DNA of 64,000 bases from Methanimicrococcus blatticola. Its GTDB lineage: Archaea; Halobacteriota; Methanosarcinia; Methanosarcinales; Methanosarcinaceae. The number at the start of each line of letters is the position of its first letter. Within the stretch, counting starts at the first letter, position 1. This document shows, piece by piece, positions 28,171 through 40,262 of this stretch. The DNA lies in contig NZ_SNYS01000007.1 in NCBI RefSeq assembly GCF_004363215.1, positions 62,001 through 126,000 on the forward strand. The letters run 5' to 3'. The notes below the pieces were generated by a model. It searched no databases and was not told the origin of the DNA. It saw only the letters and a program-made list of their open reading frames with translations. The translations under genes and the position numbers were made by a program.

Positions 28171-28282
28171 AGCAGTCGATTTCAACTGGCCGAAATAAAT
28201 ATAAAAGTAATTAATTAATAGTCATTTGTATTAATAATATGACAATTAAATTAAAATATAACATTAAACTTTGATAATACTC

Positions 28283-29191
28283 ATGAGTATTAAACGGGTT
28301 TTTATCCTTTTGGTCATTATACTGCTGCTGTTCAGCGGTCTAATCGCTTCCGGTTGTATCGAAGAAAACGAACCGAAAAATGAAGTGAAAGCGAACCGTG
28401 TCATCAGAGGCGCCACTTTTTACATTGATAATTTTGATGAAGAAAAGGCATCTGACGAGGAAGTCGTCAAGTCCCTTGCAAAAATCATTCGAAATTTCGA
28501 TGTCATCGGCCTTCAAGGAATAAAAGACCCCGACGGCAAAGCCATGCAGATTCTGATTAAAGAAATGAATAACGGAACGCATGAAAACGGAACGCCGTAT
28601 AACTACCAGTTCAATTTAAGCGAAATGGTCGGTCGAACAACTTGCTGCGAAGAACAATACGCTTACATTTATGACAGAGATGTCTTGTATCCGTCTTCAA
28701 CCCCGCGCATGTATTCCGAACCGGATGGCGATGTTTTTAACAGAAATCCGTATTTAATCGCCTTCAGAGCCTATGAAGGACAAGGCCAGGTTTTGTTTGT
28801 TCTGCTGACGACAGATAAAAACAACACGAAAGAGGAAATTGACGCGCTTCCGCAATTGATTGAAAATATCAAAAAGGAATATGCCGGCCATGAAAATATT
28901 ACAATTGTCGGCAATTTGTATTCGGATGAGCCGTATTATGACAAAACAACAGACTCCCCATTGAAATCCGATGAATATGTTTGGATTATCAGAGATGATA
29001 TGCCGACAACGACGGACGGTTACACATATGACAGAATTATCGCAACGTCGAACTTAAAAGGATCTTATGCCGGAAAAGCAGGCGTTTTCAATTTCAGCGA
29101 AGAATACGGATTGAATAAAACACAAACCGAAGCAATTTCAACGCATTATCCGGTTTATGTGGAATATTGGACATATCCGCCGAATTCTTAA
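28283..29191 (+). CDS. DNase I-fold lipoprotein 1, active site degenerate
   Basis: The 302-residue protein has a lipoprotein signal with lipobox ASGC (Cys25) and an endonuclease/exonuclease/phosphatase (EEP) fold shared with two downstream paralogs. Compared with the intact paralog at 30749, the position of the N-terminal catalytic Asn is Tyr47. The metal-binding Glu is Gly79 (LQGI), the catalytic His is Thr176 and the GDFNAD motif is GNLYSD. Only YDR and THYP retain key residues. It is therefore probably not a nuclease and may bind ligand or partner outside the cell. The ATG at 28283 is used over a TTG at 28271; the TATA spacing suggests a nearly leaderless mRNA. Confidence 0.8.
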   Translation: MSIKRVFILLVIILLLFSGLIASGCIEENEPKNEVKANRVIRGATFYIDNFDEEKASDEEVVKSLAKIIRNFDVIGLQGIKDPDGKAMQILIKEMNNGTHENGTPYNYQFNLSEMVGRTTCCEEQYAYIYDRDVLYPSSTPRMYSEPDGDVFNRNPYLIAFRAYEGQGQVLFVLLTTDKNNTKEEIDALPQLIENIKKEYAGHENITIVGNLYSDEPYYDKTTDSPLKSDEYVWIIRDDMPTTTDGYTYDRIIATSNLKGSYAGKAGVFNFSEEYGLNKTQTEAISTHYPVYVEYWTYPPNS

Positions 29192-29441
29192 ATGAAGCGA
29201 AAAATTTGCGTTTTCTTTTTTTCATTTTTTTCTTCTTTTTTTCCTTTTCCTTCTTTCTTTTTTCCTAATTCTTCTTTCTTTTTCCTTTTTGTCCTTATTC
29301 TTCTTTCCATTTCCCCATTCTTTTTTCGTCTTTCTCTTTTTTATTAGAATGTTCCCGTTCGGAATTATTACATGACAGATATGAAGGAATAGTTTCGTTT
29401 AGACAAAATAAATAAATCCTATAAACGAATAATTGTAAAGC

Positions 29442-30365
29442 ATGGGAATCAAAAACAAAACGTTTTACGGTTTGATTTTATTGATACTGTTGATTTCTGT
29501 TTCCCTGTCGGGCTGCTTGGCAGAGTCGGCAGAAAAGAAATCAAATTACACGAAGAACGATGCCGGCGAAGGTGTCGTTGTAGTGGCTACTTATTACATA
29601 GAAGATTTCAATGAGAAAAAAGTATCAGATCCCGAAATTTTGGACACGCTTGTCAAAACCGTTCATCATTTTGATATTATTGCCGTACAAGGCATTGACG
29701 ATCCGAACGGAACCGCAATGGAAAAACTGGTGACGGCATTAAATAACGGCACGGACGACACAGGAAAGAGCTATTATTATCAGTATAATTTAAGCACGCC
29801 TATCGGACCGGCCAGCGACCAAGAGCAATACGCATTCATTTACAACAGAAATGTTGTGTATCCGGCAAGCATTCCGCGCATTTATTCAGAGCCGCACGGT
29901 GATGTTTTCAAGTGGGAGCCGTATATGTTGGTGTTCCGCGCCCATGAAGGAACGGGAGACATTCTGTTCATCAACATTCACACAGACCCGAACAACACCG
30001 CAAGTGAAATTGATGAATTGTCAAAAGCGGTCGACCATGTCAAAAATGTTTATACCGGTCAGCTGAACATGACAATTTTAGGAAACATCAACGCGGATGA
30101 GCCGTATTACAATAATACGACAACGGATTCGCCGTTAAAATCGGATGAGTTCTATTGGGCAACAACAGACAAATGTTTGTCAACAACAGATGGAAAAGCG
30201 TATGACAAGATTGTTGTCACTGAAACAACCAGTCATTTCCTGATCGGCTCAAAGGGTGTCTTTAACATTACAAAAGAATACAATTTGACGCAAGAGCAAG
30301 CGGAAATCATCTCAACACACTATCCGGTTTACGCCGAATATTGGAGATATGCGCCCAAAAAATGA
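29442..30365 (+). CDS. DNase I-fold lipoprotein 2, active site partly degenerate
   Basis: This 307-residue paralog has lipobox LSGC (Cys25). Its EEP domain keeps the catalytic His180 (NIHTDPNN), Asn217, Asp255 (YDK) and His293, but has Tyr52 for the first Asn. It also has Gly84 for the metal-binding Glu (VQGI), Asn215 for the catalytic Asp in GNINAD, and Thr292 for the Asp before the last His. It is intermediate between copies 1 and 3. The two E-to-G and D-to-N changes are shared with copy 1, so they were probably fixed before that duplication. A T/C-rich tract (29205-29340) separates it from copy 1. Confidence 0.8.
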   Translation: MGIKNKTFYGLILLILLISVSLSGCLAESAEKKSNYTKNDAGEGVVVVATYYIEDFNEKKVSDPEILDTLVKTVHHFDIIAVQGIDDPNGTAMEKLVTALNNGTDDTGKSYYYQYNLSTPIGPASDQEQYAFIYNRNVVYPASIPRIYSEPHGDVFKWEPYMLVFRAHEGTGDILFINIHTDPNNTASEIDELSKAVDHVKNVYTGQLNMTILGNINADEPYYNNTTTDSPLKSDEFYWATTDKCLSTTDGKAYDKIVVTETTSHFLIGSKGVFNITKEYNLTQEQAEIISTHYPVYAEYWRYAPKK

Positions 30366-30557
30366 AAAGAATGCTTAATCGCATTCTCCTTTATTTCCAT
30401 TTATCTTTTTGCTGATTCAACTTTCATTTTTTCATTTCCACGCTTCATTTTTCATATTCAAATTCATAAACGCCCCCCGATTAGTTCTAATTTTGAAAAA
30501 CGAGTGACTCACACGCGACCGCCCCGACAGACGATCGAATTGTACACTGTATTCAGA

Positions 30558-30710
30558 TACGGCGAAGCCGTACAAAATGCGAAGCGTTTCACAAACACCA
30601 CCCTCCAATCGAAGGCAAAGCCATTAAAATGGCGAGCGAAGCGAGACATTTTCTGCAAACACCGCCCAAAAAGCACCCATGAAAAATCGTAAGCGAAGCG
30701 CACGATTTTT
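30558..30710. repeat. Cluster of GCGAAGC-tipped hairpins
   Basis: The 383-bp gap between lipoprotein genes 2 and 3 (30366-30748) has four hairpins. TACGGC-GAA-GCCGTA is at about 30558-30572, and AAATGC-GAA-GCGTTT is at about 30576-30590. AAAATG ... CATTTT, enclosing GAGCGAAGCGA, is at about 30625-30652. A perfect 9-bp stem AAAAATCGT/ACGATTTTT is at 30682-30690 with 30702-30710. The tip of each contains GCGAAGC. No gene is seen; a short ORF on either strand here is an artefact of the hairpins. Confidence 0.75.
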
Positions 30711-30748
30711 GACGAAACAAATAAATCAAGTGAAACCGTTTTGTTTTT

Positions 30749-31786
30749 ATGAAATCGAAATCCGCGATTTTAGTCGTTCTTTTATCTGTATTGCTTTTAA
30801 CCTCCCTTTTTGCCGGCTGTATTGATGGCGATATGCCGGATTTGAATAATTCAACCGGAAATACGACGGAAAATATAACGCCGCCCGTTGAGAATGAAAC
30901 AAACAACACCACACAAACGCCGCCTTCTGAAAATGTTTCTGAAAAAGAGCAGATTTCAATTGCTGCGTTTAACATTCAGATTTTCGGTCAATCCAAAGCG
31001 GCCAAAGATGATGTGATGGATGTTTTGGTGAAAACCATCCGCCGTTACGATGTTGTCGGCGTTCAGGAAATCCGCGACTCAAGCGGCACATCCCTCCCGA
31101 AACTGGTTGAAATGATTAACAACGGCACCGATGAAAACGGTAAACCGTACAATTACGATTATGTTGTCAGCGACCGACTCGGCCGTTCTTCCAGCAAGGA
31201 ACAATACGCTTACATTTACGATGCGAACTCCGTTTTTGTCGCAAGCGAACCTTTGGTCTACCCTGAGCCGGACGGAACAGACCCGTTTGAGCGCGAACCG
31301 TACATGGTAACATTCAGAACGCATGCCGGCGACTTTGACGCGCTTTTTGTTTTGATTCACACCAAACCCGATGACGCGAAAAATGAAATTGATGAATTGG
31401 ACAGCGTTGTTCAATATGCCAAAACCATTTACAAAGACCAGGAAAATTATGTTGTAATGGGCGACTTTAACGCTGACGGCTCTTATTTCAATGAAAAAGG
31501 CGACTCCGCTTTAAAATCCGATGAATATGTCTGGATTATCGGAAATGATGAAGTGACAACCACCAAATCGAAAAACACATACGACAGAATTGTGATAACA
31601 AAGTCGCTGGAAAAATATTTCACAAACACGTCAGGTGTTTTTAATTACACCGCCGAATATAACTTAACGGCAGAAGAAACGTATGCGGTTTCCGATCATT
31701 ATCCGATTTACGCGGACTTTTGGACAGTTGCAGCCAATTGGTTCGCCGGCTTGTTCAAACATATGCAAACCGAAAATGTATTCTGA
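30749..31786 (+). CDS. DNase I-fold lipoprotein 3, predicted active nuclease or phosphatase
   Basis: The 345-residue lipoprotein (lipobox FAGC, Cys24) has a Thr/Asn/Pro-rich linker (residues 30-65) and a complete EEP domain. The catalytic set is Asn75 (AFNIQ), Glu107 (VQEI), His204 (IHTKP), Asp239 and Asn241 (GDFNAD), Asp279 (YDR), Asp316 and His317 (SDHYP), as in DNase I-like enzymes. The outer-surface location suggests degradation of extracellular DNA or another phosphodiester, perhaps for nutrients or defence against foreign DNA. The substrate is unproven. It is the only one of three tandem paralogs with all these residues. Confidence 0.85.
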   Translation: MKSKSAILVVLLSVLLLTSLFAGCIDGDMPDLNNSTGNTTENITPPVENETNNTTQTPPSENVSEKEQISIAAFNIQIFGQSKAAKDDVMDVLVKTIRRYDVVGVQEIRDSSGTSLPKLVEMINNGTDENGKPYNYDYVVSDRLGRSSSKEQYAYIYDANSVFVASEPLVYPEPDGTDPFEREPYMVTFRTHAGDFDALFVLIHTKPDDAKNEIDELDSVVQYAKTIYKDQENYVVMGDFNADGSYFNEKGDSALKSDEYVWIIGNDEVTTTKSKNTYDRIVITKSLEKYFTNTSGVFNYTAEYNLTAEETYAVSDHYPIYADFWTVAANWFAGLFKHMQTENVF

Positions 31787-31887: not shown

Positions 31888-32724
31888 TTAAGAAATAATC
31901 GCGCCTTGTGAGATAACCGCGTTTTCTGAAACGGTTGCGCCGGGCAAAATAATAACGCCCTGATCAATCACGGCACCGCTTCCGATAACAGCGTTTGACA
32001 TCACGACAACGCCTTGTTTAATCACCGCGTTTTTGCCGACTGTGACGCCGGACCCGATAACAACGCCCTGGCTGATGCGCGCGCCGGATTCGATGACGAC
32101 ATCTGACCCGATAGTAACGCCTTGTTCAACAATTGCGTCCGGCGCAATGCTGACGTTTTCGCCGAGTTTTGTTCCTTCGCCGACTCCGCCGCTTGGCACA
32201 TTCTGAGTTTGGTTTGCGTTTGTCGAATTGACAATTTCGCCTTGCGTGAGGACAGATCCTGCAGGAACTGTAACGCCCGGAAGAACAATAACGCCCTGAT
32301 CAAGAATAGCACCTTCGCCGATAACAGCGCCGAACATGACAATGACGCCCTGTTTGATGACGGCGTTTTTACCGACTGTCACGCCGGTGCCGATGACAAC
32401 GCCCTGATTAATATGCGCGCCGGATTCGATGACCGAATTGGAGCCGATTGTGACACCGTGTTCGATGACGGCATCAGATGCGATACTGACGTTTGATCCG
32501 ATTTTTGTTCCTGCGCCGACAGAAATATTTTGATTGATATTTGTACTTTGATTTGTGTTTGTGCTTTGATTCTGTTCGCCATTGATCGAATTGCTTTCGT
32601 TGTCTGCAATTTGACTGTCATTAAGCGTACTGTTGTTCAAGCTGCCGGCATCAGAACTGATACAGCCTGCTGCCGAAACGAACAAGATAAGTGTAATAAA
32701 TAAAACGAATCCCATATTTTTCAT
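31888..32724 (-). CDS. Lipoprotein with duplicated left-handed beta-helix
   Basis: The 278-residue protein has a lipobox AAGC (Cys21), then a Ser/Asn/Thr/Gln-rich linker. Two similar halves of hexapeptide repeats follow (residues about 70-163 and 182-275), each with the VTIGS / VTVGKNAVIKQGV pattern of left-handed beta-helix proteins such as gamma-carbonic anhydrases and acyltransferases. No catalytic residues are recognisable, and both halves are almost entirely repeats, so a structural or adhesin-like surface role is inferred. Its start uses GAGGTGA, which contains the stop codon of the upstream TPR gene. Confidence 0.8.
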   Translation of the reverse strand: MKNMGFVLFITLILFVSAAGCISSDAGSLNNSTLNDSQIADNESNSINGEQNQSTNTNQSTNINQNISVGAGTKIGSNVSIASDAVIEHGVTIGSNSVIESGAHINQGVVIGTGVTVGKNAVIKQGVIVMFGAVIGEGAILDQGVIVLPGVTVPAGSVLTQGEIVNSTNANQTQNVPSGGVGEGTKLGENVSIAPDAIVEQGVTIGSDVVIESGARISQGVVIGSGVTVGKNAVIKQGVVVMSNAVIGSGAVIDQGVIILPGATVSENAVISQGAIIS

Positions 32725-36749: not shown

Positions 36750-36980
36750 AACAAAAATATTGAAAAACAGCAATACCAGCTAGAAAAATATTGAAAAACA
36801 GAAGCAACGGCTAAAAAACATTGAAAAACAGCAGTAACAGCTATAAAAATCATTGAAAAACAGCAATAATAGCTATAAAAATCATTGAAAAACAGCAATA
36901 ATAGCTATAAAAATTAAAAACAACAGCAATAGCTATAAAAATTAAAAACAACAGTAACCTCTATAAAAATCATTGAAAAG
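36750..36980 (+). repeat. Minisatellite of about eight degenerate 28-32-bp units
   Basis: Between dinB and the next gene, units related to CTATAAAAATCATTGAAAAA plus CAGCAATAATAG are repeated: 32-bp at 36841-36872 and 36873-36904, 28-bp variants at 36905-36932 and 36933-36960, and more divergent copies upstream from 36750. The unit length is not constant and the ORF in one strand is low-complexity, so it is not a gene. It may be a slippage product near the dinB terminator. Confidence 0.8.
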
Positions 36981-36992
36981 CGAAGTGTGAAT

Positions 36993-37658
36993 TCACGTCT
37001 TGGATTTTCGGATGAAAAGAACGACAACCAAAGACAAGATAACACAGGCTGCCAATCCGACGCCCGGAATTGTCTTTTCAGGCTCTCTTGTTTGTGTTTG
37101 TGGAGAAGGAACAGCAGAACAGTTAATGTATCCCTGAGGATGTGTGTTTAATTCCACAACAATCGGGATGTCATCAATGCCGTATGATTTGCCGGCATTT
37201 TGAATAATTTGAACAATCGCGTTGATATCTTCTTCAGAATAATCAGATTCGGAATAAACATAAATATGAACAAAAGAACTCGGACATCCGTATCCGATAA
37301 CAAATCCGCCGTTATCCCAAAGATACGGATCTAATTCGCCACTATTGTCAACCTTTTTCATGACGCCTTGAAGCAGAACAAACCATTCATACGATTCACG
37401 GCCTTTTGCTAAAACAGGAACGGTGCCGGAAACGACAATCACGTTTTCAGAAGATTTGGCGCGTTCAAAAAGAGCAGAGTCAGTTGCGGGCGTATCATCG
37501 ATAATTCGTCGGATATAAGCATCTGAAAAATACTCGCCCGTATACGATTCTGTTGCTCCGGCAGGAAGCACGGAGGAGAATGCCAAAGAGAGCAGCATTA
37601 TTAAAACAAACAGACGGCTGATTATTTTTGTGAGTTTGCTTTTCCGGATGTCAGCCAT
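36993..37658 (-). CDS. Membrane-anchored stand-alone protease N-terminal domain, paralog A
   Basis: I know no named family for this domain. The 221-residue protein has a signal-like N-terminus (about residues 11-34), an extracellular domain (43-168) and a C-terminal tail IPGVGLAACVILSLVVVLF followed by IRKSKT. The tail resembles PGF-CTERM archaeosortase signals but with PGVG. The domain shares IIDDTPATD, VSGTVPVLAKG and NGGFVIGYGC with its neighbour, and in weaker form (VYGVIPDKAKG, NGGVVIGQG) with the N-terminal domain of the secreted serine protease at 38805. Location outside the membrane, anchored at the C-terminus, suggests binding of the protease or another partner. Confidence 0.75.
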   Translation of the reverse strand: MADIRKSKLTKIISRLFVLIMLLSLAFSSVLPAGATESYTGEYFSDAYIRRIIDDTPATDSALFERAKSSENVIVVSGTVPVLAKGRESYEWFVLLQGVMKKVDNSGELDPYLWDNGGFVIGYGCPSSFVHIYVYSESDYSEEDINAIVQIIQNAGKSYGIDDIPIVVELNTHPQGYINCSAVPSPQTQTREPEKTIPGVGLAACVILSLVVVLFIRKSKT

Positions 37659-37864
37659 AATTATCTCAGATGATCATATGTATAATAATTATTTAACAAC
37701 AATTACAGTCAACGATTTTAAAAAAATATCGATTAACTAGTAATAGTGAATGTTTATAAAATGCAGTAGATATATATATACATTTCCGAATGAAAATAGC
37801 AACACTTATCGTAATTGAAAATGAACACGAATTAGAAAAAGAATAGAAGAAGAAAAGAGAAGGA

Positions 37865-38518
37865 TTATTTTCTCAGTTTTCGGGCGGATAAAACAACCGC
37901 GGCAACAAGCAGAATGCTGATACCGAGACCAACGCCGGGAATGGTTTTGACTTCATCCTGGGGCTGTGTTGACAGATCGGCAGGGAAACTCTGCGCATGT
38001 GTCTTCTTTGCGACAACAACGGGAAAATCCTTAATGCCTGCCTCTTTGCCGGCATCCTGAACAACTTTTATGACTTGTGCAATATCTTCATCCGAATATT
38101 CGGAATCGGCATTGACGAAGATTTGAATGTGATCGCCGGGGCAACCGTAGCCGATAACAATGCCGCCGTGGTCCCACTGATAAGGAACTAACAACCCTTT
38201 TTGATCTATATTCTTCAAAACATCCTGAAGAACAAGACTCCAGCGATATGCGTCTTCACCTTGAGAAAGAGCCGGAATTGTTCCTGCAACTGCAACGGTG
38301 TTCGGATCGGATCGGACCTCATCAAGCAATGCAGGATTTGTCGCAGGTGTATTATCAATAATAGATTGGATGTATTCGGCAGGTAAATAACTTGAAGTTA
38401 CTTCGCCTTCCGCCGCTGAAACAAAAGAGACGGAAAGGAAAATGAGTAACAGCAGAACAAAAAAGACGGACACTCGTCGTAAATAACGGCTCCGCAATAA
38501 TATTTCTGCATTCATCAT
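37865..38518 (-). CDS. Membrane-anchored stand-alone protease N-terminal domain, paralog B
   Basis: The 217-residue protein has the same layout as its downstream paralog: signal-like segment at about 15-36, domain at 44-169 with IIDNTPATN, VAGTIPALSQG, HGGIVIGYGC and SDEDIAQVI, and C-terminal IPGVGLGISILLVAAVVLSA with RKLRK. It lies between paralog A and the protease gene on the same strand, each with its own upstream region of 200-290 bp. Independent promoters are therefore likely. Confidence 0.75.
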   Translation of the reverse strand: MMNAEILLRSRYLRRVSVFFVLLLLIFLSVSFVSAAEGEVTSSYLPAEYIQSIIDNTPATNPALLDEVRSDPNTVAVAGTIPALSQGEDAYRWSLVLQDVLKNIDQKGLLVPYQWDHGGIVIGYGCPGDHIQIFVNADSEYSDEDIAQVIKVVQDAGKEAGIKDFPVVVAKKTHAQSFPADLSTQPQDEVKTIPGVGLGISILLVAAVVLSARKLRK

Positions 38519-38804
38519 AAATTCCTTCGATTTTTGTTTTCAACATCTGTCGACATGACATGAAAATGTTAACATTCATGAAGAAATGCTGAACAAATTC
38601 ACTTACAAATATGATTTAATGATGAAGTATTATAAAAAGATTCTCGTAAAAAGGAAAGATAACGACGAAATGTAATGATAATTAGATATAATTATAATCG
38701 CAATCTAAAGAAAGGTTTTAGAATACAAAGAATTTAAATTTTTCAAAAAAGTGATGAATGGGAGCTCTTTAATAAAAGATATTCCCAATTAAATATTTAT
38801 TTTA

Positions 38805-40262
38805 TCAGCGATCATTCAGCGTTAACGGAACAACACCCAAACGATCTCTGATTTCTGTGCACGGAACATAATAGACTGTACCGTCACCGTCGCCGCCTTC
38901 AAGAATGCCGAGAAGAACTGCAACATCTTGCTCGGTTCCGTTGACAATTGCTCTGGTTTTAACATAAATCGGACCGCCGCTGTCACCAGGGACGGAATAA
39001 GATTCTGTAGACAATTCCTTGATGACACCGACATGATTAACAGTATAATTAATTGTGCCGTTTTTAACAGTGAATGTTTGATTGTAGCGGACACCGTAAT
39101 ACGTCCCTTCCGTATTGCCGGAAACGACACCGGATTTGCACAAAGGCATACCGCTGCTGATGGCACCCTCATAACCGATGACATCCAACAATTGATCGTC
39201 TCTTTCGCCGGTATAAATGGCTGCTTTAACATCAGACGCGTTCAGCGGAATGAAAACAGAGTCTCCTTCCTTGCTCATCTTTGAAAACGTACCGATTGCG
39301 TTGCTGTTACCGTAAGCTTGTCTCGGTTGATAAGAAGTTGCATTTTCGAAGTGGAAAACGTGGGCGACCGTGACGATGCCGCGAGAATCAGAATCGTTGA
39401 CCTCTTTGGCCGCATAGCCGATGGTTCCGCCGCTTGTGGAGGTTGCAATCATCAACCCGCCGACCATCGGCCTGACTCTCTCGGTTGCCAATCCGTCGTA
39501 ATTGCTTGCGGAAGACAATTTGACAGTTTCCGCAGAGCCGCCGAAAATGGAACGGATGCGAGTCATCAAAGACGGATCGCCGGAAAGACCTTCGTTGTCA
39601 AAAGCGTAATTATTAGAAGACATTGAAACAGTTTCGAAATCACTGCGGAGATCGGTTAAATTTTCAATTCCGTCATAAATTCTGAGACCTTCGTATCCGG
39701 AATCATAAAGATACAAAAGCTGCTCTTCGGTCAAATAAGAATCAATCATTTTTCCTTTAAAAAAGACCAACGGCGCATCGTTGAGACCTTCCAGTGAAGC
39801 GTAGTAATCAACGCGTGCTTTTATGGCGAGCATATCTTTTTCCGTAAGCTCGTCAATACGTTCGTCTAAAACCATAATAGATGTATAACAAACACACTGC
39901 GTGCCTTGACCAATGACGACACCGCCGTTTGCGTAATGGTAGCTTTGCATGACTTCGTCGTCTGCCAAAGCTCTCGAGATGTTACCCATTTGGAGCCAGT
40001 ATTCGTAAGCCTCAATTCCTTTTGCTTTATCGGGGATAACGCCATAGACAGCTAATACATCCGGATTATTTTCCAGCATGAAATCAAATCTGTCTATTTG
40101 AGTTCCGGTTGTTTCGTCCACGATTTTCTGAATTTCTTCTGCCGTCATATTGTGGTATGAAGAATATCTGAGATCGTTGATAGCGAAAGTCGGAGTTATA
40201 AATCCGCCAATCACGAAAATTAATAATGCAACGAAACATACCCTTTTTAATTGTACCCGCAT
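38805..40262 (-). CDS. Secreted chymotrypsin-like serine protease with N-terminal pro-like domain
   Basis: The 485-residue precursor begins with a signal peptide (residues 1-27). Residues 37-168 form a domain homologous to the two stand-alone membrane proteins next door. A linker leads to a chymotrypsin-fold protease domain (about 265-480). The catalytic triad is visible: His301 in VTVAHVF, Asp334 in KEGDSVFIPL and Ser428 in VPGDSGGP. A TAHC-type motif is reduced to VAH, as in bacterial alpha-lytic-type enzymes. Those enzymes use an N-terminal propeptide that folds and then inhibits the protease. A similar role of the 37-168 domain is inferred. No C-terminal anchor is present, so the mature protease is free. 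Confidence 0.85.
   Translation of the reverse strand: MRVQLKRVCFVALLIFVIGGFITPTFAINDLRYSSYHNMTAEEIQKIVDETTGTQIDRFDFMLENNPDVLAVYGVIPDKAKGIEAYEYWLQMGNISRALADDEVMQSYHYANGGVVIGQGTQCVCYTSIMVLDERIDELTEKDMLAIKARVDYYASLEGLNDAPLVFFKGKMIDSYLTEEQLLYLYDSGYEGLRIYDGIENLTDLRSDFETVSMSSNNYAFDNEGLSGDPSLMTRIRSIFGGSAETVKLSSASNYDGLATERVRPMVGGLMIATSTSGGTIGYAAKEVNDSDSRGIVTVAHVFHFENATSYQPRQAYGNSNAIGTFSKMSKEGDSVFIPLNASDVKAAIYTGERDDQLLDVIGYEGAISSGMPLCKSGVVSGNTEGTYYGVRYNQTFTVKNGTINYTVNHVGVIKELSTESYSVPGDSGGPIYVKTRAIVNGTEQDVAVLLGILEGGDGDGTVYYVPCTEIRDRLGVVPLTLNDR

Follow-up and report, generated by a model that had tools for sequence, protein, structure and literature searches.

In the stretch analysed here (64,000 nucleotides, the window) of the genome of the gut methanogen Methanimicrococcus blatticola, a secreted chymotrypsin-fold serine protease of the S1 type, similar to alpha-lytic protease and the streptogrisins, is encoded next to two small membrane-anchored proteins, each of which carries a copy of the protease prodomain. 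In the same family of archaea, such stand-alone copies are usually encoded directly downstream of the protease, and the domain has switched repeatedly between the fused and the stand-alone form. The anchored proteins may be prodomain-derived inhibitors that shield the envelope of the producer from its own protease, which would itself be made as a proenzyme. We regard this explanation as about an even bet.

The protease and its N-terminal domain

The protease gene (38805..40262, minus strand) encodes a protein of 485 amino acids. The catalytic triad consists of H301, D334 and S428, which follow each other in this order, with the serine in a GDSGG motif. The same three residues had been picked out in the first-pass annotation, which was made from the sequence alone, and the choice was right: among 25 relatives, none departs from H, D and GDS at these positions (alignment columns H273, D306 and S400, since the first row of the alignment begins at residue 29). 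In Pfam, the catalytic domain of the window protein is detected weakly, through Trypsin and Trypsin_2 matches that fall short of the curated cut-offs. A profile built from 23 relatives and compared with the PDB matched alpha-lytic protease and streptogrisins with E-values of up to 2.9e-11 (2sfa). The Foldseek search with the AlphaFold2 model of the protease led to the same group (2sfa, E 1.3e-12, target TM 0.83; 2lpr, E 7.9e-12), and also to plant NAL1. Both the chymotrypsin fold and the profile similarity thus place the enzyme with the alpha-lytic protease and streptogrisin members of S1.

The catalytic domain extends from the mature-start motif VRPMVGG to the end of the protein (38805..39485, minus strand). 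In the profile search, the mature N-terminus of alpha-lytic protease and the streptogrisins aligns at this I-x-G-G motif. The N-terminal domain (residues 37-168; 39759..40154, minus strand), which comes after the signal peptide and before the mature I-x-G-G start, therefore occupies the position of a propeptide. The full-length AlphaFold2 model has a mean pLDDT of 74.6, with values below 50 in the inter-domain linker. Relatives with short linkers have only about 20 residues between the last strand of the N-terminal domain and the I-x-G-G motif.

Two stand-alone copies of the prodomain

The three open reading frames lie where the first-pass annotation had placed them, all on the minus strand. 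Copy B (217 amino acids; 37865..38518, minus strand) begins 286 nt downstream of the protease gene, and is followed by copy A (221 amino acids; 36993..37658, minus strand). Each consists of a signal peptide, one domain and a PGV-type C-terminal membrane tail. In pairwise BLASTP comparisons, the small proteins match the protease N-terminus with 27% over 174 amino acids (E 3e-13) and 28% over 123 amino acids (E 2e-12), and are 44% identical to each other. A search of the whole genome recovers the same relations, and the prodomain is also matched by the domain profile, which together exclude a chance likeness. The homology, far beyond chance already by pairwise BLASTP, bears out the first-pass view that two adjacent genes on the same strand encode the N-terminal domain of the protease alone, followed by a C-terminal membrane tail (IPGVGLAACVILSLVVVLFIRKSKT and IPGVGLGISILLVAAVVLSARKLRK). 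Both small proteins are homologous to the protease prodomain and encoded alone.

The tail of copy B (37865..37942, minus strand) reads IPGVGL, hydrophobic helix, ARKLRK, and that of copy A (36993..37070, minus strand) IPGVGL, hydrophobic helix, IRKSKT. The tripartite arrangement of PG motif, hydrophobic helix and basic end resembles the signal for PGF-CTERM/archaeosortase A anchoring (PMC8559796), and the window genome, G000, has a gene for archaeosortase ArtA (TIGR04125; G000:C4:113807-114616, E 7.4e-67, above the curated cut-off). Unlike PGF-CTERM, the window tails read PGV(G) and not PGF, and the NCBIfam scan found no match to the PGF-CTERM model (TIGR04126) among the window proteins. The same model found none at E 0.1 among the scanned relatives with stand-alone domains, most of which have PGF tails. 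In view of the ArtA gene and of other proteins of the same genome that end in PGFG or PGIG tails, the PGVG tails of copies A and B may be sorted, or may simply be kept as membrane helices.

Among the stand-alone proteins encoded next to a protease, 44 of 47 have a C-terminal hydrophobic and/or PG[FV] tail, and the three that lack it are all from outside the window's family. By inspection, the proteases have no C-terminal anchor; in the two cases where the hydropathy rule flagged one, the protein stops within the catalytic domain.

On another contig, the window genome (1.78 Mb, 82% complete) encodes a third stand-alone copy (G000:C4:59440-59922, L081), an apparent lipoprotein, near which no protease domain was found. 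A fragment of the same type of catalytic domain in an open frame of 69 amino acids (G000:C1:284737-284937) is likely the remnant of a second protease gene.

The domain matches no known prodomain family

The first-pass annotation had drawn on the propeptides of alpha-lytic-type enzymes, and on this point it needs correction. None of 76 domain members matches the alpha-lytic prodomain (PF02983) at E 0.1. More generally, there was no consistent family match in Pfam, none in NCBIfam and PADLOC, and no convincing match among PDB sequences. The domain of copy B was modelled by AlphaFold2 with high confidence (mean pLDDT 94.6, pTM 0.85). Searches for the domain gave no match to PDB folds at E 0.001 (the best hits, at 0.08, being unrelated proteins), and none among viral structures. 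The I9 propeptides, which represent the subtilisin propeptide fold in MEROPS, have the same order of secondary-structure elements (PMC6993865), but agree with the domain in this order only, and match it neither in sequence nor in fold. By any test applied, the domain is thus neither an alpha-lytic-type prodomain nor an I9 domain, and the searches taken together speak against a known prodomain or inhibitor family.

Distribution and gene pairing

Occurrence was surveyed in 112 genomes of the window's family, the Methanosarcinaceae, and in a phylum sample of 394 genomes. In the family, the domain is present in 73 of 112 genomes and the catalytic domain in 35, and all 35 also carry the domain. Domain matches outnumber catalytic matches in 34 of them, the single exception being a fragment. 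A catalytic-domain match is lacking in 38 of the 73 domain-bearing genomes, with the proviso that absence counts depend on detection thresholds and on incomplete genomes. Those domain-only genomes that were inspected encode anchored proteins in which the domain is present once or twice, and the roughly 12 kb examined at these loci contained no catalytic domain. Whether protease-linked and stand-alone forms always occur together, as the first-pass annotation had asked, can thus be affirmed in one direction: in the family, the protease is never found without the domain, whereas the domain is often found without the protease. Enzymes and their inhibitors or immunity proteins typically show an asymmetry of this kind. 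The same annotation would have counted it against its own reading if the stand-alone genes occurred mostly without a protease; the 38 of 73 genomes touch on this point, yet fit orphan immunity or inhibitor genes.

A stand-alone gene lies directly downstream of the protease gene, on the same strand, for 44 of the 52 evaluable domain-carrying family proteases (full-length proteases, partner within 800 nt; 44 of 53 before exclusion of one case at a contig end). The gap between the two genes is 12-699 nt, with a median of 136 nt. Five of the eight real exceptions come from Methanimicrococcus genomes (G002 and G003). When genome contigs were searched with the catalytic domain, only two named Methanimicrococcus genomes matched. 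The G002 gene set (L064-L074) is expanded and partly broken, with 17 domain and 11 catalytic matches, several of them in fragments or in frames with stops.

In the phylum sample, the domain is present in 82 of 394 genomes, including several families beyond the window's own, and fused proteases occur in many of these. Outside the family, three of eleven proteases have an adjacent downstream stand-alone copy, and two genomes (G304 and G461) have no stand-alone copy at all. Many of the stand-alone proteins contain two domains or are encoded in tandem.

Interchange between prodomains and stand-alone copies

In a tree of 238 domains, the resolution of which is limited by the small number of columns, the fused label changes 18 times, and at least 7 of these changes are forced by supported branches. 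Sister relations between the two forms are seen in G008, in G211 and inside a single clade from G128, G129, G132 and G148. In G008, the stand-alone gene product is 84% identical to the neighbouring protease over the first 150 residues, signal peptide included, diverges just before SRTSTWRPLIGG, the predicted junction of pro and mature parts, and then continues into an APGF tail. The stand-alone copies have repeatedly arisen from, or been exchanged with, prodomains, and the domain has moved between cis and trans.

A natural split is found in G123, where two proteases without prodomain follow an anchored stand-alone gene, at gaps of 13 and 88 nt. At these two loci (L215:4675-7000 and L214:5602-7339), the prodomain-less protease has, by eye, dockerin-like sequence at the C-terminus. 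In G026, the N-terminus of a protease (L083:5866-6951) reads as if an HTH-like segment had been spliced onto the prodomain halfway along, perhaps by recombination.

For 38 pairs, the distances between catalytic domains correlate with those between the adjacent stand-alone domains (r 0.79; p 0.0005 by within-genome shuffles). Together with the pairing of the genes, this could reflect linked joint inheritance, without contact between the proteins. In three of four close species pairs, the stand-alone genes have omega values of 0.28-0.42 and the paired proteases of 0.07-0.14, whereas the values are about equal in the fourth pair (0.38 and 0.44); for the window genes, dS is near saturation in this comparison. 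All omega values are below 1, which indicates that the genes are kept by selection.

Possible function of the anchored copies

The arrangement suggests the following scheme. The S1 protease would be secreted as a proenzyme, while two proteins at the cell surface copy its prodomain. The prodomain most likely assists the folding of the catalytic domain, and then inhibits it until cleavage near the I-x-G-G motif. Mature enzyme that comes back to the surface of the producer would be bound and inhibited there by the anchored copies. In this way, the S-layer and other surface proteins of the producer would be shielded, and the freed enzyme would act away from the cell. Where a genome has orphan copies but no protease, these could protect against the enzymes of neighbours.

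The position of the domain as a propeptide, its repeated copying-out, the anchoring at the surface, the pairing and the orphans are as expected of an inhibitor or immunity protein. The first-pass proposal of a propeptide with anchored copies that guard the producer agrees with the prodomain position, the downstream pairing, the repeated derivation of the copies and the constant company of the domain in protease-bearing family genomes; what needs correcting is the alpha-lytic type of the prodomain, and the fact that stand-alone genes are also common without the protease. We count several observations against the inhibitor reading: the domain resembles no known prodomain or inhibitor by sequence or fold, more than half of the domain-bearing family genomes (38 of 73) lack the protease, eight of eleven proteases outside the family are unpaired and G304 and G461 are without a stand-alone copy, and the PGV tails in the window do not match the curated PGF-CTERM model.

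More broadly, the system may serve in conflict. The protease would be directed against competitors, and the anchored copies, often tandem or orphan, would protect producers and defend non-producers, in a widespread archaeal protease-immunity system built on a new type of prodomain with a history of repeated moves between cis and trans. We put this forward tentatively, as a possibility with the odds against it.

As a doubtful alternative, the anchored copies could act in trans as foldases, or as tethers that hold the enzyme so that it acts at the surface. Prodomains of alpha-lytic-type enzymes are foldases, and the split in G123, which leaves the protease without a prodomain in cis, implies that maturation may call for a domain acting in trans. 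Only these split loci favour the alternative, though. Since nearly all proteases carry their own prodomain, a second foldase would be redundant; orphans without a protease would have no function; and stand-alone proteins with two domains or in tandem suit capture rather than folding.

It is rather unlikely that the domain serves for targeting or surface binding to an envelope partner, and is shared by the protease and the anchored proteins for location and not for inhibition. Such a role would fit the much wider occurrence of the domain than of the protease, often as one or two copies where the enzyme is absent. However, a prodomain is indicated by the fixed place directly before the mature start, by the interchange with prodomains and by the copy that stops at the junction of pro and mature parts, and a membrane-anchored protein has no need of a second surface-binding module. 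Least probable of all, and improbable in its own right, is that the stand-alone proteins are general extracellular inhibitors of mainly foreign proteases with the adjacent protease merely as their evolutionary source, which would suit the 38 protease-less genomes and the faster change of the stand-alone genes in three of four close pairs (as an arms race or weaker constraint would produce), but does not account for the downstream stand-alone gene kept by 44 of 52 proteases.

Relation to known propeptide-like inhibitors

If the anchored copies are inhibitors of their own protease, their closest functional counterparts are found among unrelated enzymes. SUB1-ProM, a stand-alone propeptide-like protein encoded beside Plasmodium subtilases, is a potent inhibitor of SUB1 (PMC6993865). 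SUB1-ProM and the I9 inhibitors share with the proteins described here the stand-alone propeptide-like domain, and SUB1-ProM also the location beside protease genes. They act on subtilisins (S8) and are eukaryotic, whereas the partner here is an S1 enzyme and the copies are membrane-anchored; the window domain has no sequence or fold match to the I9 inhibitors. Moreover, the three I9 examples that are well characterised are said not to stem from enzyme precursors, in contrast to the repeated interchange with prodomains seen here. CTLA-2alpha, crammer and BCPI (I29) are likewise stand-alone relatives of a propeptide, that of cysteine proteases (PMC4089206), but they belong with papain-type enzymes of animals, and their domain is unrelated to the one in the window.

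Alpha-lytic protease and the streptogrisins share with the window protease the catalytic fold, the triad, the GDSGG motif, the mature I-x-G-G start and a prodomain directly before it. Their prodomain (PF02983) is unrelated to the window domain by profile and gives no fold match. We know of no anchored stand-alone prodomain copies in this family and, to our knowledge, no stand-alone propeptide inhibitor has been described for chymotrypsin-fold proteases or for archaea, or in surface-anchored form. A literature search, in which subscription journals were mostly not covered, also found none in any of these three respects. The first-pass remark that no archaeal system of this layout has been described agrees with the literature search on methanogens, which turned up none. 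The novelty of S1 or archaeal stand-alone propeptide inhibitors is provisional. A case of protease-dependent antagonism in haloarchaea, in which a halolysin cuts a precursor (PMC12893001), is a different system.

If the proposed function is right, archaea of this family control a secreted protease by copying its own prodomain, anchoring the copy at the surface and keeping the gene next door, and a stand-alone propeptide inhibitor would be added for chymotrypsin-fold enzymes. Methanogens may then also compete by means of proteases and be immune to them. The cis, trans and split arrangements provide natural material for studying the action of prodomains.

Other features of the window

Scans for bacterial-type promoters and terminators gave results near shuffle levels, and such models do not apply to archaea. 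Between an upstream DNA polymerase IV-like gene and the gene for copy A, a unit of 32 bases is repeated in tandem 7.5 times (36753-36979). Three tandem genes on the plus strand (28271-31786) encode proteins with lipoprotein-like N-termini, the third of which has a match to Exo_endo_phos (PF03372, E 1.4e-11), so that the genes may represent a row of surface DNase-like enzymes. On the minus strand (31888-32724), a lipoprotein-like protein consists almost entirely of hexapeptide (left-handed beta-helix) repeats (PF00132, E 3.4e-34), which is unusual outside acyltransferases.
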